This document shows positions 1-28,434 of a stretch of DNA of 51,203 nt, piece by piece; within the stretch, counting starts at the first letter, position 1, and each line of letters starts with the position of its first letter. The DNA is taken from NCBI GenBank assembly GCA_017412705.1, contig JAFPWS010000065.1:1-51203 (forward strand), given 5' to 3'. The position numbers and the translations under genes were made by a program. The notes beneath the pieces were generated by a model. It was not told the DNA's origin, ran no database searches, and worked only from the letters and a program-made list of their open reading frames with translations. Source of the DNA: Prevotella sp. GTDB taxonomy: Bacteria > Bacteroidota > Bacteroidia > Bacteroidales > Bacteroidaceae.

Positions 1-141
1 CTCTGCCATGTGCTTGCACAGGCCGCGCAGCGAGATGGTCTCCTTCTCTACTGCCTTCGGGTAGTACTTGCCGTAGGCGGGTGAGTTCGCGTTGTCGTTC
101 TTTCTGATGTTGATCAGAAACTGTGGGGTTTGTACTGCCAT
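1..141 (-). CDS. HU-like DNA-binding protein, partial (5' end only)
   Basis: The reverse strand reads 47 open codons from an ATG at 141 to the window edge, so the 3' part is missing. The peptide begins MAVQTPQFLINIRKND and continues with a YGKYYPKAV stretch and an SLRGLCKHMAE helix. This matches my recollection of the long HU-like (IHF-like) DNA-binding proteins of Bacteroidales, which often lie beside DUF3987/primase-like loci. Such proteins bend or coat DNA. A promoter lies about 135 bp upstream (275-306). The gene points away from the restriction and primase genes to its right. The family call rests on a short N-terminus and the locus context, so it is moderate. Confidence 0.6.
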   Translation of the reverse strand, partial: MAVQTPQFLINIRKNDNANSPAYGKYYPKAVEKETISLRGLCKHMAE

Positions 142-494: not shown

Positions 495-693
495 GGAAAG
501 TAGGAAAGTAGGAAAGTAGGAAAGTGGACATTAAGCCCTTTTTTCAGAGTGCGGAAGAGAGACATTATAAGTAGAAGTTATTATTATTTATAATTCTATT
601 ATTATTCTATTATTATTTAAATTACTATCCTATAATATCCCACTCAAAACACCTTCTTGTCCACTTTCCTACTTTCCTACTTTCCTACTTTTC
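495..693. repeat. 34-bp perfect inverted repeat of 8-bp units around an AT-rich core
   Basis: The left arm (497-530) consists of tandem GGAAAGTA units ending in GGAAAGTGGACA. The right arm (658-691) is its exact reverse complement over 34 bp. The 127 bp between them includes a very AT-rich tract (about 561-640) made of TTATTATT-like runs. On its own strand the right arm continues into GACAAGAAGGTGTTT, a tail it shares with the copy inside the gene at 5956-7146. The layout resembles repeat-flanked unwinding regions of replication origins, or the end of an element. No coding sequence is seen from 142 to 779. Confidence 0.85.
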
Positions 694-703
694 CCCATTT
701 TAT

Positions 704-734
704 TTTGTAGATTGGATAATTATTTGTAACTTTG
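704..734 (+). promoter_or_regulatory. Promoter of the restriction-modification operon
   Basis: A TTTG element (704-707) and a TAACTTTG box (727-734) are separated by 19 bp. Transcription would start near 741, about 40 bp before the ATG at 780. The right arm of the inverted repeat ends just upstream of it (691), so a protein binding the repeat could affect this promoter. Confidence 0.65.
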
Positions 735-779
735 CGGTGTATTCAGTAATCGTAGCCAAAGCTACCTAATGATTAATAT

Positions 780-3700
780 ATGCTACTACAGAAGAACATC
801 GTCAAGAAGTACCTGAACCTGCTCAGCGAAGAGCAGACGCTGAAGCCCTGGCAGCAATACCAGAGTTACTTTCTAAACGAAGACATACAAGCCAACATTC
901 ACAAAATCAAGGAAGAGCAGTTTCAGGAAGGTTTTCTGCGCGAGCTGTTCGTCAAGGTGCTGGGCTACACCATCAATCCCTCGCCCAACTATAATCTGAC
1001 TACTGAGCTGAAGAACGACGTGGGTTCGAAGAAGGCCGACGGTGCCATTATGATTGACGATAAGGTGATAGGCGTGATAGAGTTGAAAGACCACAAGACG
1101 CCCGACCTTGCCAGCATCGAGAATCAGGCCTTTGGATATAAGAGCAAGCACAAAGACACTCGTCTGGTTATTATCTCCAACTTTGAGAAGTTGCGCCTGT
1201 ATATTGACAATGCCGTGGAATATCGCGAGTGGGACATCTTCCACATGACGCTTGACGAATTCCGCGAGATGTACCTCTGTCTGGCCTGGCAGCAGGTGGA
1301 GCGGGGCATAGCCTTGCATGTCAAACAAGAGTCGGTGTCGAACGAGGACCAGATTACAAAGGCCCTCTACAAAGACTATTCACAGTTCAAGCGTGTACTC
1401 TTTGCCGATATACTGGAGCAAAATCCAACACCAGAAGGTAAGGACGAGAAGGAATGGCAACTGCTGCTCTTCAAGAAGACGCAGAAGCTGTTAGACCGTT
1501 TACTCTTCATATTCTTTGCTGAAGATGGCGGATTGCTGCCTCCAAACTTGATAGTGAAGGTTATTGACCAATGGGTAAAACTGAAAGATGAGTTTGATGA
1601 ATATAAGCCTTTCTACGACCTCCTAAAGAAGCATTTCAACTACCTGAATACTGGTCATAATGACATCTTTGCCTATAACGGTGGATTGTTTAAGCCTGAT
1701 GAGGCTCTTGACAGTATTAAGATAAGTGACGACCTGCTGATAGAATATACACGCAAACTCTCTACTTACGACTTCGAGAGCGATGTTGATGTTAATATCT
1801 TGGGCCATATCTTCGAAAACTCACTATCAGAAATCGAGGAGGTTACGCAGCAGATTAACAATGGCGAGGCTCCGCAGACCTCTAAGCGCAAGCAAGACGG
1901 CGTGTTCTATACGCCACAGTATATCACGAAATACATTGTGGAGAATACCGTGGGGCGCCTGTGTGACGAGAAGAAAAAAGCGTTGAACATCGTAGAAGAC
2001 GACTACCTCAGCGACCAGCGCCGCCAGCTGAAGACCAAGCAGCGACTGCTCGATCAGCTCAATCAGTATCGCCAGTGGCTCTTAGCCATCACCATTCTCG
2101 ATCCCGCCTGTGGCAGTGGCGCTTTCCTGAATGCCGCCTTGCAATTCCTGATGGTTGAGCACAAGCAGATAGACGAGCTGGAGAAGAAGGTGTTGGGCTA
2201 CAGCCTTGAGTTTCAGGATGTGGAGAACTATATTCTGGAAAACAATCTCTTTGGTGTCGACATCAACGAAGAAAGCGTAGAGATAGCCCAGCTGGCCCTC
2301 TGGCTGCGCACCGCCAAGCCCCACCGCAAGCTGAACACGCTGAGCGAGAACATCAAGTGCGGCAACTCCCTTATCAGCGACCCCGCCATAGCCGGCGAAA
2401 AGGCCTTTGACTGGCAGAAGGAGTTCCCCAGGGTTTTTGAGAATGGAGGCTTCGATGTGGTGATTGGGAATCCGCCGTATGTGAGTGCAGCAACACAGAT
2501 GGCAAGTGAATCTATGGCTATTCAGCGCAAGGGCATAATTGATTCTGGAAAGTATATTTCTCTCCATCAAAAGTGGGACCTATATATTCCGTTTATTGAG
2601 TTAGGCATTCGATATTTGTGCAAAGATGGCGGTGTCTGCTCTATGATTGTTCCTTATCCATTGACAAATCAATTATATGGACTTAAATTAAGGGATATGC
2701 TTATTAGTGATTATAATTTGTATGAGCTCTCTGATTTAAGAGGAACAAAAGTTTTTGAGGATGCTACTGTTACAAGCACGATTTTCTTTGTGGAGAAAAG
2801 GACAGAGAAAACAGAAATAGCCATTTCGTCAATAATGGATGCTTCATTGAAAAAGAGATATGCTAAGACGACAGATACACTAATACAGGACACAAGAACC
2901 AATGTATGGAACTTGGATGAGGTCAGTAAACAGGCAAACAGACATTCTCAGATGAATGTTCTTGGGGACTTCTGCTACATTAGTAAAGGTATGGTTCTAA
3001 ATGCCGATGAAAAGACAGCTAAAGGAGCATTTAAGAAGGAAGACCTTGTTAGTCTTACAAAGGATGACATTCATTGCAGAGAATACGTAGAGGCAAAGGA
3101 TATTGAAAGGTATGCGGTAAACAGAATTCGTTATTTGGAATACGAAACGGAGCGCAGTCCTTATCAACTAAGTAGACCTACGTTTAGAGAACTATATACT
3201 TGCCCTAAAATATTAACAAATAAAATTGGAGCATTAAAAGTTGTTCTTGATACTAATAATTTGCTTTGTGACCAAACTAATCGAATTTGCGTATTGTGGA
3301 AGGATTTGAAGGGTGTAGATAATGCAAGCATTAATAATAGCGTGAAGAAATTCTCACAAGCTTCACGAGCACAATTGGAGGAATTATCATCGTCAATAGA
3401 GATACGTTTCTTGCTTGTGTTACTTAATTCGAAATATGCCAACTATTTACTTGATTCTATAAGAGGTAGCGGCAACATCGATGTCAATCCTGAATATATC
3501 AGAAATATCCCTATACCTCTAATACCATTGGAATCCCAGCAGCCCTTCGTTGTCCTTGCCGACACGATGGTCTCTCTTCATCAGAAGCTTCAAGACAAAC
3601 GCACCCGTTTCCTGCATCGCCTGACTGATAACCTGGAGGGCGTGAAGATAACGACAGCCCTGCAACAGTTCGACCAGTTGGACTTCCGTGGGCTGATAGC

Positions 3701-3893
3701 AGAGCTGAAGAAACAGAAGATACGCATACCCGTTAAGGAACAGGACGAATGGGAAGACTTCTTCAACGAACGTGTGGCAGAATGCCATAAACTCTCGGCG
3801 CAAATCAAAGCTACAGACGAAGAAATAGACCAACGTGTGTTCGACCTCTACGGACTGACGGAAGAAGAGCGCAAAATAGTGATGGAGGAATAA
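780..3893 (+). CDS. Type IIG-like restriction endonuclease / adenine methyltransferase
   Basis: This 1037-residue protein combines DNA cleavage and N6-adenine methylation in one chain, as in the Eco57I/type IIG group. The N-terminus has a PD-(D/E)XK nuclease pattern: D87 in KADG, then E101-L-K103. Methyltransferase motif I, DPACGSGAF, starts at residue 441, and the adenine-type motif IV NPPY is at 564-567. The last 450 residues contain a TaqI-like target-recognition region (IRGSGNIDVNPEYIRNIPIP) and a C-terminal helical segment. All key residues are present, so it looks intact. The stretch from about 2550 to 3540, mostly the target-recognition part, is much richer in A+T than the flanking codons, suggesting exchange of specificity. 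It leads a four-gene operon, with an 18-bp gap to the RhuM gene. The sequence recognised cannot be read from the gene. Confidence 0.9.
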   Translation: MLLQKNIVKKYLNLLSEEQTLKPWQQYQSYFLNEDIQANIHKIKEEQFQEGFLRELFVKVLGYTINPSPNYNLTTELKNDVGSKKADGAIMIDDKVIGVIELKDHKTPDLASIENQAFGYKSKHKDTRLVIISNFEKLRLYIDNAVEYREWDIFHMTLDEFREMYLCLAWQQVERGIALHVKQESVSNEDQITKALYKDYSQFKRVLFADILEQNPTPEGKDEKEWQLLLFKKTQKLLDRLLFIFFAEDGGLLPPNLIVKVIDQWVKLKDEFDEYKPFYDLLKKHFNYLNTGHNDIFAYNGGLFKPDEALDSIKISDDLLIEYTRKLSTYDFESDVDVNILGHIFENSLSEIEEVTQQINNGEAPQTSKRKQDGVFYTPQYITKYIVENTVGRLCDEKKKALNIVEDDYLSDQRRQLKTKQRLLDQLNQYRQWLLAITILDPACGSGAFLNAALQFLMVEHKQIDELEKKVLGYSLEFQDVENYILENNLFGVDINEESVEIAQLALWLRTAKPHRKLNTLSENIKCGNSLISDPAIAGEKAFDWQKEFPRVFENGGFDVVIGNPPYVSAATQMASESMAIQRKGIIDSGKYISLHQKWDLYIPFIELGIRYLCKDGGVCSMIVPYPLTNQLYGLKLRDMLISDYNLYELSDLRGTKVFEDATVTSTIFFVEKRTEKTEIAISSIMDASLKKRYAKTTDTLIQDTRTNVWNLDEVSKQANRHSQMNVLGDFCYISKGMVLNADEKTAKGAFKKEDLVSLTKDDIHCREYVEAKDIERYAVNRIRYLEYETERSPYQLSRPTFRELYTCPKILTNKIGALKVVLDTNNLLCDQTNRICVLWKDLKGVDNASINNSVKKFSQASRAQLEELSSSIEIRFLLVLLNSKYANYLLDSIRGSGNIDVNPEYIRNIPIPLIPLESQQPFVVLADTMVSLHQKLQDKRTRFLHRLTDNLEGVKITTALQQFDQLDFRGLIAELKKQKIRIPVKEQDEWEDFFNERVAECHKLSAQIKATDEEIDQRVFDLYGLTEEERKIVMEE

Positions 3894-3910
3894 AAACAAT
3901 AACAGCGATT

Positions 3911-4927
3911 ATGGACGAACAACAGAATATTATCATTTATCGGACAGCAGACGGCAAGGCATCGGTGGCCTTGTATGCCAAAGACGGGAAGATCTGGCTG
4001 AACCAGCAACAGATGGCAGAACTTTTTGCCACCTCGAAGCCAAACATCAGTATGCACATAGCTAACATCCTGAAAGAAAAGGAGTTATATAAAGATTCAG
4101 TTGTTAAGGAATTCTTAACTACTGCCGCCGATGGCAAAAACTACAACGTGGTTTTTTACTCTCTGGAGATGATTATTGCCGTGGGATATCGTGTCAGGGG
4201 TGTCCGAGGCACACAGTTCAGGCAATGGGCTACTGAACATCTGACAGAGTATCTTGTAAAGGGCTTTACGATGGATGACGAAAGGCTGAAGAATCCTGAC
4301 GGGCGACCAGACTACTTTGATGAGTTGTTGGCCCGTATCCGTGATATCCGCGCATCAGAGAAGCGGTTCTACCAGAAAGTACGTGACCTGTTTGCCCTGA
4401 GCAGTGATTACGACAAGACGGACAAGTCTACGCAGATGTTCTTTGCCGAGACGCAGAACAAACTGCTCTATGCCGTTACCCATCAGACAGCAGCCGAACT
4501 GATTGTTGCCCGTGCGGATGCCAATAAGCCCAACATGGGACTGACCACCTGGAAAGGTAGCATCATTCGCAAGGGCGACGTCATCATAGCCAAGAACTAT
4601 CTCCAAAGCGATGAAATAGATTCGCTGAACCGTCTTGTAGACATCTTCATTACAAGTGCTGAAGAACGCGTGAAGGGACGCAGAGACCTGACGCTCGACT
4701 ATTGGCGTAAGAACGTAGACAGCCTGCTCACTTTCCAAGAGAAGGACATCCTGCAAGGCAAAGGCTCCATTTCCAATGCGGAAGCAGAGGAAATCGTTCG
4801 CAGCGTTTATGACACCTTCAACACCAAACGTAAACAACTTGATGCCCAGATGGCCGATGCCGAGGACATCAAGATGCTCGAAGACTTGGAGAAGAGTATT
4901 ATAGAGAAACAGAAAGGGAAGGGATAA
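3911..4927 (+). CDS. RhuM family protein
   Basis: This 338-residue protein fits the RhuM family throughout. It has an N-terminal segment with a winged-helix look (WLNQQQMAELFATSKPNISMHI, residues about 31-52), a middle FYSLEMIIAVGYRVRG block typical of the family, and a helical C-terminus rich in charged residues. RhuM was named in a Salmonella pathogenicity island, but its biochemical role is not established. In Bacteroidales it often lies next to restriction-modification genes, as here, where it sits 17 bp after the restriction enzyme and 13 bp before an unknown gene. A regulatory or anti-phage accessory role is inference. No signal peptide or membrane segment is visible. Confidence 0.85.
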   Translation: MDEQQNIIIYRTADGKASVALYAKDGKIWLNQQQMAELFATSKPNISMHIANILKEKELYKDSVVKEFLTTAADGKNYNVVFYSLEMIIAVGYRVRGVRGTQFRQWATEHLTEYLVKGFTMDDERLKNPDGRPDYFDELLARIRDIRASEKRFYQKVRDLFALSSDYDKTDKSTQMFFAETQNKLLYAVTHQTAAELIVARADANKPNMGLTTWKGSIIRKGDVIIAKNYLQSDEIDSLNRLVDIFITSAEERVKGRRDLTLDYWRKNVDSLLTFQEKDILQGKGSISNAEAEEIVRSVYDTFNTKRKQLDAQMADAEDIKMLEDLEKSIIEKQKGKG

Positions 4928-4940
4928 AACGATAAAGCCT

Positions 4941-6011
4941 ATGGATAATCTATACGCCATCTATACTTATAAATTCGTCGAAAATAAAGATCAAGGTGAT
5001 TTGTTTCAGGGCGAACAGACTAAGGAGGCCGACATGGATTCGGCTCAGAATGCGTTCTATAGCCTCTTTAAGCCTATTAACAACCTTTTCCACGTGCAGA
5101 AGGACGAGGGCGATACGGCAAAGAAATATACCTGCGAAATATTCGGCAACGACAGCAGAATAGTAGCTCTGAGGCTCTTCAACATGAAAGAAGAACACTA
5201 TTGGGAGATAGTATCCAGCCCACACGACCCGATGGGTTTTGTGGAAAGGAAGAGCCAGCCGTCAACGCCCTGTACCTTCGTCATCATTGACTGCCGCCCC
5301 GGTAAGAACATTCTGGCAGTAAAAGTAGAGACAGAAGCTTGGCGCAACACCGACACTGTCCGCGACTTGATGGAGGAGAGCATTAACCGGCATTTGGAAA
5401 GCCTGTCGTGCGGATTTAGGGTAAAGCTCTATACGAAGATGGAGAGCCGCAATTTCTATGAGTACTCGAAGAAGCGCATCAAAAAGGAAGGACGATGGGT
5501 AAAAAAGATGATCATACACTTTAAGACTGGCAAACTGGATCCAGAAGTAGAAGCAGTGATTAACAGTTCTGATTACCTGAGGCGGCTATTTATCCTCATC
5601 AACAAGTATGCCTTGTCTGGAGCCATGACACTCGACCAACCGATAGGCCCTAAACTGATTGACAAACGCCGTCACGACATAGAGAACATCATAGCCCTCA
5701 TCATGAGTGACCCCCAGGGCTATGGTCTGGATTTGACCTTCGATGACAATGTTACCCTACATTGTGGGAAAGACACAAGAGCCGAGCTCCCGATGGAGCC
5801 TGAGGGAGCACTGGAACTTTTCCACATCAGAAGAAAGGCAGAAAGGGCTACCCAACTTGAAATTGCTTTTGACGACCATCCAAAACCTGTCGAAAACAGA
5901 TACCACCTCGAAGTCTGGCTCGACAGTGTTGCGGAAAAAACAGAAAAGATGAAAGATGCAGAGACTATTAAAACCAAACGAAGTCGCTCAAATAGACGAA
6001 AGGCTTCATGA
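4941..6011 (+). CDS. Unknown protein, third gene of the restriction operon
   Basis: I do not recognise this 356-residue protein. It is soluble in appearance, with mixed alpha/beta character in the first 200 residues and a helical segment about residues 205-260 (YLRRLFILINKYALSGAM). The tail is very basic (KTKRSRSNRRKAS), which could bind nucleic acid. It starts 13 bp after the RhuM gene and its last 56 bp overlap the next gene in another frame, so the two products are probably translationally coupled and may act together. It has no recognisable nuclease, ATPase or methylase motif. A defence-related role is suggested only by its neighbours. Confidence 0.7.
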   Translation: MDNLYAIYTYKFVENKDQGDLFQGEQTKEADMDSAQNAFYSLFKPINNLFHVQKDEGDTAKKYTCEIFGNDSRIVALRLFNMKEEHYWEIVSSPHDPMGFVERKSQPSTPCTFVIIDCRPGKNILAVKVETEAWRNTDTVRDLMEESINRHLESLSCGFRVKLYTKMESRNFYEYSKKRIKKEGRWVKKMIIHFKTGKLDPEVEAVINSSDYLRRLFILINKYALSGAMTLDQPIGPKLIDKRRHDIENIIALIMSDPQGYGLDLTFDDNVTLHCGKDTRAELPMEPEGALELFHIRRKAERATQLEIAFDDHPKPVENRYHLEVWLDSVAEKTEKMKDAETIKTKRSRSNRRKAS

Positions 6012-7146
6012 CAACGCCCTGCTTCAGACATGTCGGAAGGTATGGCGCAGAAGAGGTATAGAAGTAACGTCGGTAGTGGCATGTGCAGAGGACATCTTCT
6101 GCGAAGCAGCTTGGCTGACTGATGAGCTCATTGAGGCTGGCAAAGAGACTGAGGCTTCCAACTTGACGTTGGGGCTCTGGAATGATGTGTCAAATGACGT
6201 TGCGAAGTGGGAAAACAAAATACCGCTGACGGATCGTTATCTCATCGTCTCAACCGTATTCCAAATTGTAGCAACAGCATTTTCACTACACTGGGATTCG
6301 CACTATTGTGACGACCTGCGCGATGCCCTTATTGAGACAGAGAACAAATATCGTGACGAGCATCCGCCTAAAGACCTATACGCATTACAGGAACAGCAAC
6401 GGCATCAAGATGCCCTTTTGGAAGTAATCATTCCATGTTCGGTAATACTAAAAAGATGGATAAACGACTATATTGACAATCCCGACCTGTGGCTAACTGA
6501 AGAGATTGATATGGCGCTCAATCCACCGATTAACATCAAAGCCGGAAAGAAGGAAAGTAGGAAAGCAGACAAGAAGGTGTTTGATGCCGATACCTTTAGA
6601 GAAACATTTAACTATCAGCCCGATGGCATGAGTAATAAGGAAAGAGAAATCAGATTAAAAATGGCTTTCAACAAGATGCGTGGCATTCTGATAGACCGCG
6701 AAACCCATTATGACACATTCAAATCTCTTTTCACAGGAAAGCCTCTTGATGTAAAAATCGTATGGATAGGCACAAATGCCCAATTACGGAAACTATTTAA
6801 TCTACTTATTACTAAGAATAAACTTATATCAAAGCCAACAGGCGGTCTGAACCAGATACTTACAGCAAGATTCAAAAAAGTCGACGGCTCTTCATTTACA
6901 ACCAATGAAATAAAAGATGCGGGAAACGATGGTGATATGAGTGTAGTGAACGATGTGGTAGAATACTTAACCCCAATTCCCGTACAAATGGAAGACTTGG
7001 AACAGCAACTAAGTCGTATTGTATTGGAAGAACAAGAGCGCGCAGATTTGAGGGGCGACAAAAATGGTAAACCTCAAAAGCATTTGCCAAAAGGTACTAA
7101 TAGTAGCCCAACCCCCAATCAGCATACACGAAAAAGCAAGAAGTAA
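5956..7146 (+). CDS. Unknown protein, possible RteC-like C-terminal module
   Basis: This is a 396-residue protein of unknown function. Residues 1-190 are helical. A lysine-rich linker (about 196-208, KKESRKADKKVFD) follows, then a region from about 270 with the pattern VWIGTNAQLRKLFNLLI ... FTTNEIKDAG. That pattern recalls the C-terminal module of RteC-type Bacteroidales regulators, but the resemblance is weak. The tail is low-complexity and basic. The linker is encoded by a copy of the 8-bp-unit repeat found outside genes at 495-693 and 11158-11198. The start lies inside the upstream gene (56-bp overlap). A hairpin with a T-run follows at 7239-7276. Confidence 0.65.
   Translation: MQRLLKPNEVAQIDERLHDNALLQTCRKVWRRRGIEVTSVVACAEDIFCEAAWLTDELIEAGKETEASNLTLGLWNDVSNDVAKWENKIPLTDRYLIVSTVFQIVATAFSLHWDSHYCDDLRDALIETENKYRDEHPPKDLYALQEQQRHQDALLEVIIPCSVILKRWINDYIDNPDLWLTEEIDMALNPPINIKAGKKESRKADKKVFDADTFRETFNYQPDGMSNKEREIRLKMAFNKMRGILIDRETHYDTFKSLFTGKPLDVKIVWIGTNAQLRKLFNLLITKNKLISKPTGGLNQILTARFKKVDGSSFTTNEIKDAGNDGDMSVVNDVVEYLTPIPVQMEDLEQQLSRIVLEEQERADLRGDKNGKPQKHLPKGTNSSPTPNQHTRKSKK
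6544..6582 (+). repeat. Copy of the dispersed GTAGGAAA repeat inside a coding sequence
   Basis: The sequence GGAAAGAAGGAAAGTAGGAA followed by AGCAGACAAGAAGGTGTTT matches the right arm of the inverted repeat at 658-693 (read on its own strand), including the tail GACAAGAAGGTGTTT. It is in frame and encodes a lysine-rich linker. The coding copy has fewer and less regular units than the intergenic ones. Confidence 0.75.
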
Positions 7147-7238
7147 GCATCGTACTCTGCGTTTTACTCTGCAAATTTACTAATACTACACATTTTATTC
7201 TTTTTAACCAAGTACGCAGGAAAAGTCTCTTTATAATT

Positions 7239-7276
7239 AGCCCTGGATGAGAAAAGTTCATTGCAGGGTTGTTTTT
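7239..7276 (+). terminator. Probable terminator of the restriction operon
   Basis: AGCCCTG (7239-7245) pairs with CAGGGTT (7264-7270), with a further inner ATGA/TCAT pairing, and GTTTTTA follows. It lies 93 bp after the stop codon of the last operon gene. Confidence 0.5.
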
Positions 7277-7330
7277 ATATTGCTTTCTCTTAATAGACAT
7301 TAACAGCATTTCGCTCCGCGTTTTTCTTTG

Positions 7331-7358
7331 ACTCTGCGTTTTTCAAAAAATGCAGAGT
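7331..7358. repeat. Hairpin with ACTCTGC arms; ACTCTGC motif repeated nearby
   Basis: ACTCTGCGTTTTT (7331-7343) pairs with AAAAATGCAGAGT (7346-7358) apart from one G-T wobble. ACTCTGC also occurs twice at 7154-7172. The hairpin lies 69 bp before the gene at 7427 and could be a regulatory site or an end structure of the primase-like locus. The rest of 7147-7426 shows no gene. Confidence 0.55.
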
Positions 7359-7426
7359 AACCCTTCGCCTTAGGTTTGAACGAACCATCTTCAACCTAAC
7401 GTGGATGGGGGTAGTCATTAATAAAG

Positions 7427-8035
7427 ATGTCTAAGATGACAAGCAAGAAAGCTGCCAACAACGGCAGTAACCGCCAGCAAAAGATGCTGGAGAAGTTAGC
7501 AATCGCCTTGATGAAAGGCATTAGTGTGAATCCCCGTTGTGTGGTTTACGACGATTTCGCAGGTTTCCCCCTGCAGGTAGTGTTCCTCGACCGTCGGTGG
7601 TGGGTGGTAACTCCCGGTGAGCAGCTGCAGCCGCTGAATGAGTATATCAACTGCGAAGGTGTAGGGTACATGTATCTCTGCGAGGCGCGGGGCACGGTGG
7701 GTGCACTGGCACTGGCCAGGATGCTGGGCAAGGCACTGGCGAACCCCGAAGACGCGGTTGACGAGGTGCTGCGCCATAGGGTGGAGAGCCTGAAGCGTCT
7801 GGGTGTAACGCTGGACGTGAAGGACGAAGCGCTGACGTTTGAGCTGCAGGTGTTTTCGAACGAGGGCACTCACGGACGGCAGGGCAATTTCTCGATGTGG
7901 TGCCACGTGGCTGGCAATATCTGCGAACTGATGTTCGACATTGATGCCTTCGAAAGCAAGAAGGATGCCGAGCAGTGGGCTGGCTACTACTTCGACTGTC
8001 TGGAGCAGATGGGGATTGAGTGTAAGATTGTTTAA
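7427..8035 (+). CDS. Unknown protein, first gene of the primase-like operon
   Basis: I do not recognise this 202-residue protein. The first 20 residues are basic and polar (MSKMTSKKAANNGSNRQQK). The rest appears to be a compact alpha/beta domain with a tryptophan-rich strand (LDRRWWVVTPGEQLQPL, residues about 54-70). It has no signal peptide. An in-frame ATG four codons later is an alternative start. It lies 18 bp upstream of a second unknown gene and in the same orientation as the primase-like and DUF3987 genes, so it is probably part of the same replication-like or element module. Confidence 0.7.
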   Translation: MSKMTSKKAANNGSNRQQKMLEKLAIALMKGISVNPRCVVYDDFAGFPLQVVFLDRRWWVVTPGEQLQPLNEYINCEGVGYMYLCEARGTVGALALARMLGKALANPEDAVDEVLRHRVESLKRLGVTLDVKDEALTFELQVFSNEGTHGRQGNFSMWCHVAGNICELMFDIDAFESKKDAEQWAGYYFDCLEQMGIECKIV

Positions 8036-8053
8036 TTTAATAATAAGGTAAAA

Positions 8054-8569
8054 ATGAAAATAACAGACATTAAACCAAAGAAAATAAAGGTTCGCGGAAC
8101 GGGAACCTACGACCCAGAAACCAACAAGTTTGGTTTCGAACCTTTCAACGAGGCTCCGTCGACCCAGCAGAACGTGAAGACGTGTGCAGGCGGCGGCAAG
8201 CGTTGGGTGACGACGGGTGCCGACCCTTCGAAGATGATTACGCTGAAGTGCAAGGAGTCGAGTGCCGACCAGTACAGCGACTTCCTGAGCCAATTCAACG
8301 CTTTGACGAAAGACCTGAAGCCCAAGAAGCCCGTGGTGCCGCCCACGGAGCTGCGCGTGGTGTCAGAGGGCGGCTTGCAGTGCTGGCTCGACGAGGCGAA
8401 GCAGCAGGTGACCTTCACGGGCACCATCGATTTGGGCAAGCACACCCGCGACTGGCAGGCCGAGGTGCTGCGCCAGGTGCAGCTGGTGGTCAGGAGACTA
8501 CCCGCCAGCGACAAGTTCAACCGAGTAATCAACAACATTAAAAAGACAGGAGGACAAAACCATGTTTAG
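8054..8569 (+). CDS. Unknown protein, second gene of the primase-like operon
   Basis: This 171-residue protein has a basic N-terminus (MKITDIKPKKIKVRGTGTYD) and a C-terminal beta-plus-helix segment (WLDEAKQQVTFTGTIDLG ... EVLRQVQLVVRRL). I can assign no family. It has no membrane segment or signal peptide. Its last 8 bp overlap the start of the primase-like gene, which implies coupled translation and a related role. The middle (residues about 75-115) is proline- and lysine-rich and is likely a linker. Confidence 0.7.
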   Translation: MKITDIKPKKIKVRGTGTYDPETNKFGFEPFNEAPSTQQNVKTCAGGGKRWVTTGADPSKMITLKCKESSADQYSDFLSQFNALTKDLKPKKPVVPPTELRVVSEGGLQCWLDEAKQQVTFTGTIDLGKHTRDWQAEVLRQVQLVVRRLPASDKFNRVINNIKKTGGQNHV

Positions 8570-9188
8570 AATCACCTACCAAGTACGTACCTATCTGGAG
8601 TGTGTCCAGATGGGTTGGGAAGAGTGGCAGCAGGCTATGCAGACTGCTCTGCCCATCATCAGTGAACTTCGCCGCGAATACAAGTCATACCTTGACACAG
8701 GCGACGAGACCCGCAAGCAAAAGGCGGACGAACTGAAAAAGACGCTCCCCGGCGCATGCTTTCAGGCTTCCGACTATGCTGTGAGCATCGGGACGAAGAA
8801 GTTCAACAAGGGGAAGCGTGGGCGTTGGCGCGAAATGCGCTATGCCTACCTCTCAGGGCTTGTGGTCATCGATGTGGACCACTGTGGCAATCCGCGTGAA
8901 GTGTTCGGGCGCATACAGCAGGAACACGACCTGAAAGCTGAGGGCGTTCTGCTCGTTTACGTCTCGGCACGTGGCGAGGGCATGAAAATCGTCTTCAAGG
9001 CACGTCCTGCCGAACAGTGGGGGAACCTCATCTGCCAACAGTATGAAATGGCATCGCTGCTTGGAATCCTCGACTATGTGGATGATGCCTGCAAGGACTC
9101 AAACCGCCTGTCGTGGATAACAAGTCCCGACGACGTGCTCTACTGCGACAGCAAGGAACTTTTCAATGTTGAACCTCAAAATGACTAA
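8562..9188 (+). CDS. BT4734/VirE-N-like primase-fold protein
   Basis: This 208-residue protein fits the BT4734-like N-terminal domain, a member of the archaeo-eukaryotic primase fold seen in Bacteroidales. The acidic pair is in LVVIDVDH (D104 and D106). The second motif is VSARGEGMKIVFKA (residues 134-147) and the third contains DSNRLSWITSPD (about 179-190). In many Bacteroidales loci this domain is fused to DUF3987. Here the two are separate genes whose ends overlap (ATGACTAA at 9181-9188 contains a start for one and the stop of the other). It could prime DNA synthesis for an element, though activity is not shown. Confidence 0.75.
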   Translation: MFRITYQVRTYLECVQMGWEEWQQAMQTALPIISELRREYKSYLDTGDETRKQKADELKKTLPGACFQASDYAVSIGTKKFNKGKRGRWREMRYAYLSGLVVIDVDHCGNPREVFGRIQQEHDLKAEGVLLVYVSARGEGMKIVFKARPAEQWGNLICQQYEMASLLGILDYVDDACKDSNRLSWITSPDDVLYCDSKELFNVEPQND

Positions 9189-11151
9189 TACGATTATGAC
9201 AGAAGAAATCATTCGTACAGATTACGACCTGGCCTGTGGCGACCGCTACCGTCAGGAACCCAAGGGCGACTCAACGCCCACCATGCCCAAATGGGTGGAG
9301 TTTGAAAAGCAGCGTAGGGCTGAACGCCGCAAGACTAAACGGAAGGAGAAGGCAGCTGCCACCAGCGAATCTGCCCCACAGCAGCCTGCCGCTACCGTTG
9401 AGGTGACTCCCGCCGCAGACACTCCCCAGCCAGAAGCACCCGCAGAGTTCTCGCCGGAAGAGGAGGCTTTCATCAGGGTGCTCAACGAGCACTACGGCCC
9501 CGCCCTGCCTCCTCACACGAAGCACGACACGATGCAGACCGAGACCTCACACTGGCTGTGCTACTTCAACGACAACGACGCACAGAAAGCCATCCGGATG
9601 GCCTACCGCCTCGACTGGGTGCAGAACTGGCATCCAGAGCCTGGCGAGGTGGAGGACCTGTGCCAGTCGGCAGCCAAGAAGAAGCTGCTGTCGCGCTATC
9701 CCAAGGCTCTGAAGGAGCTGATGGATAGGGCAGGCATCAACCTTGAACAGACAACGGCGGTTTCAAAGGATGCTGACCCCTTGGCAGTACTGCCCTTCGA
9801 CCACTGGTGCGACCAGATAGAGCAGTTCTTCAACGTGTACCCCTGCCTGCGTGAGGTCTGCGAACCTCATCCGCGCCGCCTCTGGCCTTTCCTGCTCTTC
9901 GCCTCGGCAGCGATGATGGGCGCGTGCATGACGCTGTGTTACTACAAGTTCTATGCCAACAAGTCGGCGAGAACGCGCCTGACGTACATCATATTAGGAG
10001 TGGGCGACCCCACGAGCGGTAAAGGTACGCTGACACGACTCATGGAACTGCTGCTGGCACCGATATTGGAATCGGACGCCATAGCCGACGAAGCCACCAA
10101 CCAGTGGAAGGAGAAGTTTGACGCTACCGCCAGCAACAAGGAGCACGAAACGCGCCAGAAAATCTACAACCGCTTCTTCGGTCCGCGTGCTTCTAACGGC
10201 GAGTTCATCCGTTCGATGATTAATAACAAGGCCGTCGTAGACGGTGAAGAGATGCCCTTAGGCTGCGTGACGGTTGACACCGAGAAGGACAACTGCATCA
10301 ACATGTCGCGCTCTGGCGGGTGGCAGAACAGGGACATCATGGTACTGAAAAGCTTCCATACGGAGTTTGATTCGCAGCACTACCAGAACAAGCAATCTGT
10401 ATCGGGCCGTTTTAGGGTAGTTTGGGTACAGGTGGAGTCGTGCACGCCGCCCACACTAAAAAGACTGGTCAACGAGAGAAACGTGAATTCAGGTCTCGAC
10501 ACGCGTATGGGTACAATCCCTATGGGCAAACCCGACTTCGACATGATGCCGTTAGACAGTAACGAGGACAGCCTCCTGGCCTACAACGAGACGCTCCGTC
10601 AGTGGGCCTACCGTCTGGACCAGCGTCGCGGCGAACTGCCCATCTGGCCTTTGGTGGAGCACGTCCACGAGTGGTGTGACGAACGCCGGGCCATCGCCGA
10701 GTTCAATAACGACCAGGCCGATTGGCTTCTCATCAAGCGTGTGCCGTATTACGGTATCAATGTGAGTGCGCCCTACATTGACATGCGACACTGGGAAGAG
10801 CGTGAAAAGACGGGTACCTATGTTATCGATGACACCGACTGTGCTCTCTGCGATTTAGTCCTTGACATCCAGTACCGTACCCAGCATTTCTGGTACTACG
10901 AACTGCACCGCATGTACTACGACAATCAGTTGAAGGAGGCCGCCCAGCAGCGTCGTCGCACCAACAAGTTCGTCGAGTGTTTCCGCCAGTTGCCCCAGGA
11001 ATTCACCACCGAACAGTTTGCCCAGACATTCGGCTATGCCAACAACCGTGCCGGGCAGAAAACCTTGCAGCGCTTGGAAGAGGACAAGGCCATCCAGCAC
11101 ATTATGCGCGGCCACTATCGGAAACTTTGCCTGGAGCTTCCTACATTTTGA
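9166..11151 (+). CDS. DUF3987 domain protein, primase-helicase-like ATPase
   Basis: A 661-residue DUF3987 protein. A charged, alanine/proline-rich N-terminal segment (residues about 40-110) leads into a helical region. A P-loop, GVGDPTSGKGT (278-288, K286), follows, with an aspartate-rich strand GCVTVDTEKDN about 80 residues later. The family resembles the helicase half of element-encoded primase-helicases and is abundant in Bacteroidales. The printed start overlaps the upstream gene by 23 bp. The ATG at 9181, which overlaps that gene's stop codon, and the ATG at 9196 are equally plausible. A copy of the 8-bp-unit repeat begins 6 bp after its stop codon. Confidence 0.8.
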   Translation: MLNLKMTNTIMTEEIIRTDYDLACGDRYRQEPKGDSTPTMPKWVEFEKQRRAERRKTKRKEKAAATSESAPQQPAATVEVTPAADTPQPEAPAEFSPEEEAFIRVLNEHYGPALPPHTKHDTMQTETSHWLCYFNDNDAQKAIRMAYRLDWVQNWHPEPGEVEDLCQSAAKKKLLSRYPKALKELMDRAGINLEQTTAVSKDADPLAVLPFDHWCDQIEQFFNVYPCLREVCEPHPRRLWPFLLFASAAMMGACMTLCYYKFYANKSARTRLTYIILGVGDPTSGKGTLTRLMELLLAPILESDAIADEATNQWKEKFDATASNKEHETRQKIYNRFFGPRASNGEFIRSMINNKAVVDGEEMPLGCVTVDTEKDNCINMSRSGGWQNRDIMVLKSFHTEFDSQHYQNKQSVSGRFRVVWVQVESCTPPTLKRLVNERNVNSGLDTRMGTIPMGKPDFDMMPLDSNEDSLLAYNETLRQWAYRLDQRRGELPIWPLVEHVHEWCDERRAIAEFNNDQADWLLIKRVPYYGINVSAPYIDMRHWEEREKTGTYVIDDTDCALCDLVLDIQYRTQHFWYYELHRMYYDNQLKEAAQQRRRTNKFVECFRQLPQEFTTEQFAQTFGYANNRAGQKTLQRLEEDKAIQHIMRGHYRKLCLELPTF

Positions 11152-11157
11152 AAATGC

Positions 11158-11198
11158 AGAAAGTAGGAAAGTAGGAAAGTAGGAAAGCGGACAAGAAG
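11158..11198 (+). repeat. GTAGGAAA repeat copy at the right end of the accessory locus
   Basis: Three GTAGGAAA-type units end in GCGGACAAGAAG, the same unit and tail as at 495-693 and 6544-6582. It is in the same orientation as the left arm at 495-530. Together these copies bracket the restriction and primase-like genes. Confidence 0.8.
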
Positions 11199-27203: not shown

Positions 27204-28434
27204 CCTGATTATCATCGGCGCGGGACCAGGCGGGTACCGCGCCGCTGAATATGCCGCCCGGCAGGGGCTCCACGTCACCATCTTCGAAGAAGGCGACGTC
27301 GGAGGCACCTGTCTCATCCGTGGCTGCATCCCCACCAAGACCTATGTCCATTCAGCTACCTTTGCTGAGGCTGTGGAGCGTCAGCAGCAGGTCGTCAGCC
27401 AGCTGCGCAGTGGTGTCGAGAGCATCCTCTCACACCCCAATATCACCCTGATACGCGAACGTGCCGTCTTTGGCCAGACACCCCTCCTGCAGGAGTCGTT
27501 GGGCAAGGTTCCCATCATCATTGCCACTGGAAGCCGAGCCAAGCTGCCGCCCATTGCCGACATCGCAGACCCCCGCGTCGTCACCAGCACTGAGCTGTTA
27601 CAGCTCACCACGCTGCCCCGCCGCCTCTGCATCATCGGTGCCGGCGTCATTGGCATGGAGTTCGCCTCCGTCTTCCAGCGCTTCGGCTCTGAGGTCACCG
27701 TCATTGAGACCCTCAAGGAGTGCCTGCCTATGGTCGACAGCGACATCGCCAAACGCCTCCGTAAGCTGTTGGAGAAACGAGGCATCCGGTTCCGCATGAA
27801 GACCGCCGTACAGACCCTTGCCGACATCGATGCCGACACCATCCTCATCGCCACAGGACGTCAGCCTAATACCGATACCCTCAACCTGCAGGCTGCAGGC
27901 ATCACCACCGACTCCCGTGGCTTCCTCCCCGTCGACGACAACTTTATGATAGCCAACAGCCAACAGCTAACAGCTAATAGCCGAGCATACGCTATCGGCG
28001 ACGTCAATGGTCGCCAGTTGCTGGCCCATGCCGCTGAGATGCAGGCCGTCCGTGCCGTCAACCACATCCTGGGCCGTACAGACGGCATCCGCTTCGACAT
28101 CATGCCTGCGGCCATCTTCACCGAGCCCGAGGCAGCCTGTGTAGGACCCCACGAAGACCAGCTCAAGGAACAAGGTGTCGAATACCTCTGTCGTAAGGCC
28201 TTCTGGCGTGCCAACGGCAAGGCCCTCGCCATGAACGAGACCGAGGGCATGCTCAAGCTCTTCTCCGATGCGCAAGACCGCATCCTGGGCTGCCATGCCT
28301 ATGGAGCCCATGCCGCCGACATCATCCAGGAAGTCTCTGTCCTCATGTGCCGCGACACCACCGTCAACCAGCTGGCCGACATGGTGCACATCCATCCCAC
28401 CCTGGGCGAGATTCTCAAGAGTGCCTGCGAGTGA
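27190..28434 (+). CDS. lpdA: Dihydrolipoyl dehydrogenase (glycine cleavage L protein)
   Basis: A 414-residue flavoprotein that reoxidises dihydrolipoyl-GcvH with NAD+. The FAD loop is GAGPGG (10-15), the redox disulfide is C41-LIRG-C46 (most relatives have CLNVGC), the NAD loop is GAGVIG near residue 153, and the C-terminal H-P-E site is in HIHPTLGEIL. It is 40-50 residues shorter than typical enzymes. Residues about 254-264 are encoded by a 7-bp tandem repeat just before the YAIGDV motif. It overlaps gcvPB by 14 bp and ends the operon before a terminator at 28612. Confidence 0.92.
   Translation: MNKTDLIIIGAGPGGYRAAEYAARQGLHVTIFEEGDVGGTCLIRGCIPTKTYVHSATFAEAVERQQQVVSQLRSGVESILSHPNITLIRERAVFGQTPLLQESLGKVPIIIATGSRAKLPPIADIADPRVVTSTELLQLTTLPRRLCIIGAGVIGMEFASVFQRFGSEVTVIETLKECLPMVDSDIAKRLRKLLEKRGIRFRMKTAVQTLADIDADTILIATGRQPNTDTLNLQAAGITTDSRGFLPVDDNFMIANSQQLTANSRAYAIGDVNGRQLLAHAAEMQAVRAVNHILGRTDGIRFDIMPAAIFTEPEAACVGPHEDQLKEQGVEYLCRKAFWRANGKALAMNETEGMLKLFSDAQDRILGCHAYGAHAADIIQEVSVLMCRDTTVNQLADMVHIHPTLGEILKSACE
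27951..27982 (+). repeat. 7-bp microsatellite inside lpdA
   Basis: About 4.5 copies of AGCYAAC run in tandem and encode an NSQQLTANS stretch. Seven is not a multiple of three, so gain or loss of one unit would shift the frame. Confidence 0.75.

Follow-up and report, generated by a model that had tools for sequence, protein, structure and literature searches.

What do short tandem repeats do around the restriction and primase-like genes of a Prevotella chromosome? The question is raised by a stretch of DNA of 51,203 nucleotides (nt), here called the window and analyzed over its whole length, which is contig C81 of a 3.42 Mb draft genome in 96 contigs. Near its left end lies an island in which restriction and other cargo genes are followed by genes for a BT4734-like primase-type protein and a DUF3987-like helicase, and in which tandem arrays of 8-bp units recur (Table 1). 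No role has been assigned, to our knowledge, to the recurrent modules that combine BT4734/DUF3987-type genes with an HU-like protein and a peptidase. The analysis presented here indicates that the repeats are probably the cognate iterons of a replication initiator borne by the island, and that they probably mark the island ends as well as points of exchange.

The four array copies reported in a preliminary description of this DNA are all present. A pattern of two consecutive units, with up to 3 mismatches allowed, yielded 12 matches in the window, all between positions 492 and 11186, compared to 0.24 expected, and this number was reached in none of 100 shuffles of the window. The array tail is GACAAGAAG in three of the four copies and GACATTAAG in the copy at 495. 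The copies at 495 and 653 are the two arms of a single 199-bp element (hereafter X), which folds, as single-stranded DNA, into a long hairpin (z -11.8) and the core of which consists of 75% A+T, against 47% for the window. The last array starts 6 nt past the stop codon of the helicase gene; this copy and the one at 653 both face outward from the island, and the copy at 495 is direct relative to the last one.

The confinement of the copies to 10.7 kb, as initially proposed, holds within the window but not within the genome, given that contig C87 contains the same inverted pair at 28204-28389. Up to the array edge, 236 of the 245 aligned columns of the window and C87 are identical, and beyond it only 41 of 95; to the right of this second X, at the contig end, the apparent end of a Fic-type gene was seen by eye. 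In two further contigs, C73 and C8, there is a distinct array, which reads (TTTCCCAC)n in the direction of the helicase gene. The C73 island encompasses Dnd/Pbe phosphorothioation genes and a BT4734/DUF3987-type gene followed by (TTTCCCAC)3; the possibility that this repeat is an inverted copy of GGAAAGTG was rejected because, in the gene orientation, it reads (TTTCCCAC)n with a tail of its own. Judging from their sequences, C8 and C73 could be neighbors that carry the two halves of one X element. The draft contigs of this genome break in or near X elements (the end of C8, the start of C73 and the end of C87), and therefore such islands are probably under-counted in short-read genomes.

Relatives of the window helicase (E up to 0.001) were detected in 79 of 150 genomes of the same genus and the GTAGGAAA-type pattern in 17 of the 150. 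When 30 downstream regions were read, short tandem repeats of differing sequence were found directly after the stop codon in many and no repeats in some (among them L094, L105, L108 and L112), so that a fixed family restricted to GTAGGAAA was rejected. Many BT4734/DUF3987-type primase-helicase genes in Prevotella and its relatives have, no more than about 100 nt beyond their stop codon, approximately three tandem copies of an 8-bp unit, the sequence of which differs between islands. In a first set of 76 DUF3987-type open reading frames (ORFs) from 68 loci, 8 of these being second ORFs of a split module, a strong tandem array followed 42 ORFs, with a period of 8 in 28 (controls, 36/392 and 4/392, respectively); this set overlaps the loci on which the idea of the arrays was formed. 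A second set was compiled from 80 named loci, the best of at least 402 confirmed relatives, by removing 15 genes in common with the first set. The 65 remaining genes, from entries titled Prevotella, Prevotellaceae, Bacteroidaceae, Bacteroidales, Bacteroidetes or Xylanibacter, many of them from ruminant stomachs, were followed by an array in 40 cases, with a period of 8 in 35 (controls, 55/503 and 12/503; Fisher test, 9e-28 for period 8). An array with a period of 7 follows the helicase gene of an isolate, Prevotella sp. P6B1 (L283). A tail motif occurs in 45 of 75 arrays, at a shuffled rate of 0.08, although the pattern was written after the data had been seen and is given no weight.

Beyond the genus, 61 genomes were drawn from the family, and a helicase relative (1e-20) was found in 3 of the 57 that belong to other genera. 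In one such genome, locus L322 has both a GTAGGAAA array (score 15, period 8) and the recognition helix of the window protein, to which its helicase is 69% identical; the array of L324 scores 15 at period 9, and L320 and L321 score 12, with apparent short arrays by eye. A further search, of 58 genomes belonging to other families of the order and one other-genus genome of the family, gave no helicase match. Among titles and abstracts of the open-licence literature, we found no paper on these arrays. In L119, the helicase stop codon is followed by a long array of the TAAGCATT type that extends far beyond the usual three units.

The same unit recurs at both ends of part of the islands. From 133 ORFs in both sets, 75 period-8 arrays were obtained, and each fetched locus was searched for the same array elsewhere. 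For 20 of the 75, this search yielded an inverted pair with the same unit, located more than 2.5 kb upstream and with its members 100-500 bp apart, and dissimilar arrays from other loci, used as a control, gave an upstream pair in 0 of 416 cases. In L120, L130 and L139, even the order of the imperfect units is nearly identical in X and after the helicase gene. It is hard to reconcile this matching of island-specific units, together with their position after a stop codon and their covariation with a helix of the helicase described below, with neutral slippage or with a miniature transposon family unrelated to the helicase, an explanation that we consider very improbable. The features that such an explanation would account for are the existence of X elements without a helicase (L058 and L077) and the varying unit numbers, of which the L119 array is an example; in addition, a miniature inverted-repeat transposable element with 23-nt tandem repeats has been described in Porphyromonas gingivalis (PMC4596501).

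The helicase itself contains a candidate reader of the repeats. The AlphaFold2 model of the window protein (35 sequences; mean predicted local distance difference test score 80.4) ends in a winged helix, with the recognition helix at residues 627-639 and wing strands at 643-647 and 650-653. This protein produced no Pfam match to PF13148 (DUF3987), the relative L155 scored 21.9 bits against a cutoff of 27, and a sequence-profile search with the window helicase returned nothing significant, with archaeo-eukaryotic primases (AEPs) at E 0.77-0.9. The primase-type protein matches PF08800 with 26.7 bits against a curated cutoff of 22.4. Among the 75 proteins, the similarity of the recognition helices correlates with the similarity of the units (rho 0.61, and 0.42 as a partial correlation on the rest of the protein, with 0 of 500 permutations reaching either value), and the rest of the protein retains a rho of 0.31; the related sequences are not independent, and no phylogeny-corrected test is claimed. 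Pairs of helices that are at least 90% identical have, on average, 11.8 of 12 array positions in common, compared to 6.5 for pairs with less than 30% identity. Within the subfamily of the window (27 proteins), the recognition helix ranks first of 89 segments, and among 35 representatives second of 90. Specific pairings recur as well: the TTTTGCA unit accompanies TNDSATSR helices, TTTCCCAC accompanies SK helices and TTACTCAC accompanies SQQ helices, each in three loci, and TTACCCAC accompanies SQS helices in six of seven. Within one group, a change from Lys to Gln in the helix is associated with one from T to A in the unit, and Ser, Gln or Pro occurs together with CC, CT or TT, which is the pattern that direct reading by the helix would be expected to give.

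The upstream element has a similarly recurrent layout. In the 20 islands with an upstream pair, the X cores average 75% A+T, against 52% in the flanks; a TANNTTTG box lies within 200 bp to the right of X in 16 of them (1.5 expected), and a divergent HU-HIG homolog to the left in 10, one of which (L120) supplied a query. Among the 10 islands without HU-HIG, 4 had less than 0.5 kb of sequence on that side and 6 at least 1.4 kb. The corresponding TAACTTTG of the window may be a -7 box of the Bacteroidetes promoter type. The proximity of X to a promoter-like box and to a divergent gene would suit operators, in which case the winged helix would be an autoregulator and X would control both the HU-HIG and the cargo promoters. 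We regard this possibility as rather improbable because the other array is located 3' of the helicase gene and not at its promoter, because the protein that carries the winged helix is a primase-helicase, and because the arrangement of inverted arrays on either side of an AT-rich core corresponds to origins that have been described.

Indeed, origins of phage-inducible chromosomal islands (PICIs) consist of two iteron sets flanking an AT-rich region (PMC6092414), and this layout is matched, at the sequence level, by X. In staphylococcal pathogenicity islands (SaPIs) and in the staphylococcal cassette chromosome mec (SCCmec), Rep and Cch2, respectively, read iterons beside their own genes through a C-terminal domain (PMC7581432). 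A reading through iterons and a cognate initiator appears best to us because the layout matches these published chromosomal-island origins and because the winged helix covaries with the unit. The bracketing of the restriction and primase genes by the repeats, as originally noted, is supported by the outward-facing copies and by the recurrence of the layout in other islands with other repeat sequences; among the roles considered at that stage (element ends, replication sites or protein-binding sites), initiator-binding sites involved in replication fit best, and a function as ends or exchange points is compatible with them. Under the mechanism that we propose, the tandem 8-bp sites would be bound by the winged helix at the C-terminus of the island-encoded primase-helicase, which is composed of the BT4734-like and DUF3987-like proteins. 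X, with its hairpin-prone, AT-rich core between inverted iteron arrays, would be the likely replication origin, where the DNA melts, and the array after the helicase gene would be a second cognate site that marks the other end of the island. The initiator would bind both sites, load on the melted core, and prime and replicate the island; the shared arrays might double as points of exchange where restriction systems and other cargo are swapped. From the observed arrays and their covariation with the helix, we infer binding to DNA, activity as an origin, and replication and exchange of the island.

With SaPIs and PICIs, the islands described here have in common the chromosomal location, a primase/helicase as the (here putative) initiator, iterons beside its gene, and two iteron sets around an AT-rich region (PMC7581432, PMC6092414); reading of the iterons by the C-terminal domain, as in SaPIs, is predicted here from the covariation and the structural model. 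They differ in that no integrase or phage-packaging gene was recognized in the parts scanned, in the combination of a DUF3987-like helicase with a BT4734-type primase, in the presence of iterons at both island ends, in the diversification of the 8-bp units between islands, and in their hosts, Prevotella and its kin. The islands, as known here from sequence, resemble PICIs in their apparent replication layout but are not classed as PICIs. The SCCmec helicase (Cch2/CCPol-MP) likewise binds direct repeats, three iterons, just downstream of its own gene, but these are 5-nt iterons, a ccr recombinase gene adjoins, and the relevant passages of that paper describe no second inverted iteron pair (PMC7581432). 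ORF904 of pRN1 is a primase-helicase with a C-terminal winged helix and an origin directly downstream of the gene (PMC4234260); unlike the arrays, that origin is a stem-loop without iterons, and pRN1 is an archaeal plasmid. Fusions of AEP primase domains with DUF3987 putative helicases are present on integrated mobile elements (Kazlauskas 2018; PMC5862659), although the pertinent sections of that study place the BT4734-like family in no clade and mention neither 8-bp iterons nor Prevotella islands. The HU-like gene PG0121 of P. gingivalis lies near a capsule operon with a 77-bp inverted repeat upstream, but neither 8-bp arrays nor a primase-helicase are described in the part of that report dealing with this locus (PMC3969353). 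In Vibrio cholerae, a phage nuclease that needs the iterons of the phage-inducible chromosomal island-like elements may select for iteron change (PMC8263062), and by analogy, such selection is one possible reason for the diversity of units observed here.

Several observations count against iterons read by a cognate initiator. No strong array follows 25 of the 65 genes of the second set and 34 of the 76 ORFs of the first, nor is there one at the three helicase relatives in the complete genome G250. X was not found for 55 of the 75 arrays, in part because contigs or the 10-14 kb fetched flanks end, and the location of X between divergent genes would also suit the binding of a regulator. In L215 and L217, site and helix are in common and the distal units differ; L275 combines an SQS helix with another unit, and is an exception to the residue-unit substitutions. 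Shared ancestry is not fully removed from the covariation because the recognition helix takes only second place among 88 protein segments overall and, for the 48 proteins outside the subfamily of the window, fifth place among 90. A first Mantel test on 44 loci, which mixed periods 7-9, gave a rho of only 0.14 for the C-terminal 75 residues; the later test was limited to period 8 and 75 loci. Finally, the copies do not always flank DUF3987 loci, contrary to what might have been anticipated: inverted pairs without a helicase gene occur in L077 (3770-3990) and L058 (16233-16490), within the 18-20 kb stretches fetched, and in L068 there is a pair with a half copy and no helicase nearby. In L077, a neighboring reading frame runs into the X element. 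In L068 (9146-10436), X and the half copy bracket a single gene that resembles the four-helix-bundle/zinc-ribbon cargo of L224.

Mobility of the islands is only inferred because an exact empty site was not found. The single-copy empty site initially envisaged for strains that lack the locus did not appear in joined form at the glyS (29 relatives), C87 (16) or C8/C73 (14) sites. In the 29 best other genomes, the 420 nt upstream of glyS (278 nt in L195) contain no GGAAAGTA array; downstream of the C87 neighbor gene in 16 relatives, there is no such array within 1.4 kb; and in 14 relatives, the right flank of C73 was not found beside the left-flank gene of C8. The presence of arrays differs between genomes. 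Upstream of glyS in L189, near a contig end, there is a different tandem array (AGTGAAN-type), perhaps that of another island at the same site. Comparison of all pairs of 69 loci revealed matching right flanks in 3 pairs, that is, the islands reside at different sites. Extrachromosomal residence, as an iteron plasmid or phage replicon, is unsupported: the window helicase had no match in 72,556 plasmids or 50,697 phages, nor in viral contigs, among which a single-protein query detects only close relatives.

These data bear on an alternative in which the arrays are element ends or attachment sites, and a recombinase, perhaps provided in trans, excises or integrates the island through the direct (495 and 11158) or inverted (653 and 11158) copies, with no part played by replication. 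This scenario would be in keeping with the outward inverted copies at both ends and the direct copy at 495, with the drop in identity between the window and C87 at the array edge, with the different locations of the post-helicase arrays and the glyS and C87 neighborhoods that lack them, with an in-gene copy at a domain boundary, and with the match of 2 of 61 cargo ORFs to a REP-associated tyrosine transposase model. Nevertheless, we consider it unlikely. No integrase is present among the 25 Pfam families listed, of 30 in all, for the 61 cargo ORFs of 20 islands. No recombinase was seen by eye among the clusters common to at least 4 of 68 loci, and neither an empty site nor, by eye, a target duplication was found; furthermore, the covariation with the winged helix would be left unexplained. 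If instead the arrays are cognate iterons, the BT4734/DUF3987 modules acquire a role as replicons borne by islands, some with genes for restriction, phosphorothioation, RhuM or Fic, and it becomes testable how, without an evident integrase, defense genes move in the Bacteroidota of the rumen; about 75 natural pairs of a recognition helix and an 8-bp site are on offer. The findings suggest that the islands, some of which bear anti-virus genes, represent a kind of small replicating element undescribed in these bacteria. It is a tentative possibility that they form a large family of self-replicating chromosomal islands in Prevotella and its kin that lack an evident integrase and trade defense cargo, each with a private initiator-iteron pair and sites at both ends; these pairs would have diversified through the recognition helix, allowing a single genome to host many islands free of cross-talk, and would amount to a readable winged-helix/DNA code.

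Table 1. Features of the island at the left end of the window
Position	Strand	Feature	Basis
1..141	-	HU-like gene cut by contig end; homolog in C8 is HU-HIG, PF18291	homology
495..693	.	X element, candidate origin: two inverted 8-bp arrays on either side of AT-rich core	sequence, hairpin fold, AT content
495..535	+	left array of X, (GGAAAGTA)n GGAAAGTGGACATTAAG	sequence
536..652	.	AT-rich core between the two tails	AT content
653..693	-	right array of X, tail GACAAGAAG, points outward from island	sequence
727..734	+	TAACTTTG, possible -7 box of cargo operon	sequence; TANNTTTG box right of X in other islands
780..3893	+	cargo: type IIG restriction enzyme-methyltransferase	family searches
3911..4927	+	cargo: RhuM family, PADLOC candidate PDC-S05	family searches
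4941..6011	+	cargo ORF, no family found	family searches
5956..7146	+	ORF with in-frame array copy between N- and C-terminal parts; only C-terminal part common to L210	alignment
6544..6582	+	in-gene array copy, tail GACAAGAAG, codes GKKESRKADKK	sequence
7427..8035	+	replication-module ORF, no Pfam family; relatives in L064, L079	Pfam, relatives
8054..8569	+	replication-module ORF, no Pfam family; recurs before helicase gene	Pfam, locus clusters
8562..9188	+	BT4734-like N-terminal (archaeo-eukaryotic primase-type) protein	PF08800, E 6.6e-6
9166..11151	+	DUF3987-like helicase with C-terminal winged helix (predicted)	relatives, AlphaFold2 model
10999..11124	+	predicted winged helix, residues 612-653, recognition helix 627-639	AlphaFold2 model, covariation
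11158..11198	+	right-end array directly 3' of helicase gene, tail GACAAGAAG	sequence

The general order in the islands is HU-HIG (leftward), X, cargo, small module genes, the BT4734/DUF3987-type gene and the array. Beyond the array, 23 of 68 loci have a peptidase M15 cluster gene and 12 have a P5-like ORF; an SSB-like ORF is found in 15 (P5-like and SSB-like are our own labels, without a Pfam match). The in-gene copy, which is present in the window and in L205, encodes a Lys/Arg-rich stretch in the gene that precedes the replication module, and in L210 the same array lies between a different N-terminus and a C-terminal part of distant similarity (28% over 150 residues, E 6e-5). Such a copy fits an exchange point, and could also be a functional linker.

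All 61 cargo ORFs of at least 120 amino acids in the 20 islands were scanned against Pfam and NCBIfam. The matches include RhuM (4), Eco57I-type restriction-methylase (3), C5 methylase (2), HSDR_N (2), and BanI-type restriction enzyme, HaeIII-type restriction enzyme and Fic (1 each). A link to defense or toxins is thus apparent for 14 of the 61, a count from which no enrichment is claimed; PADLOC agrees for those cargo ORFs that were given to it. Cargo without such a link includes a SpoIIE phosphatase, an ion channel and AraC regulators, and cargo elsewhere includes Dnd/Pbe, type II restriction and Fic genes. Between the HU-like gene and X, the window also contains a 22-bp palindromic tandem array (CAGTCGTAATACGAAGCCCCTT, 368-427); related arrays are present in C87 and C8, and other short palindromic arrays lie beside some X elements elsewhere (L034, L040 and L045).

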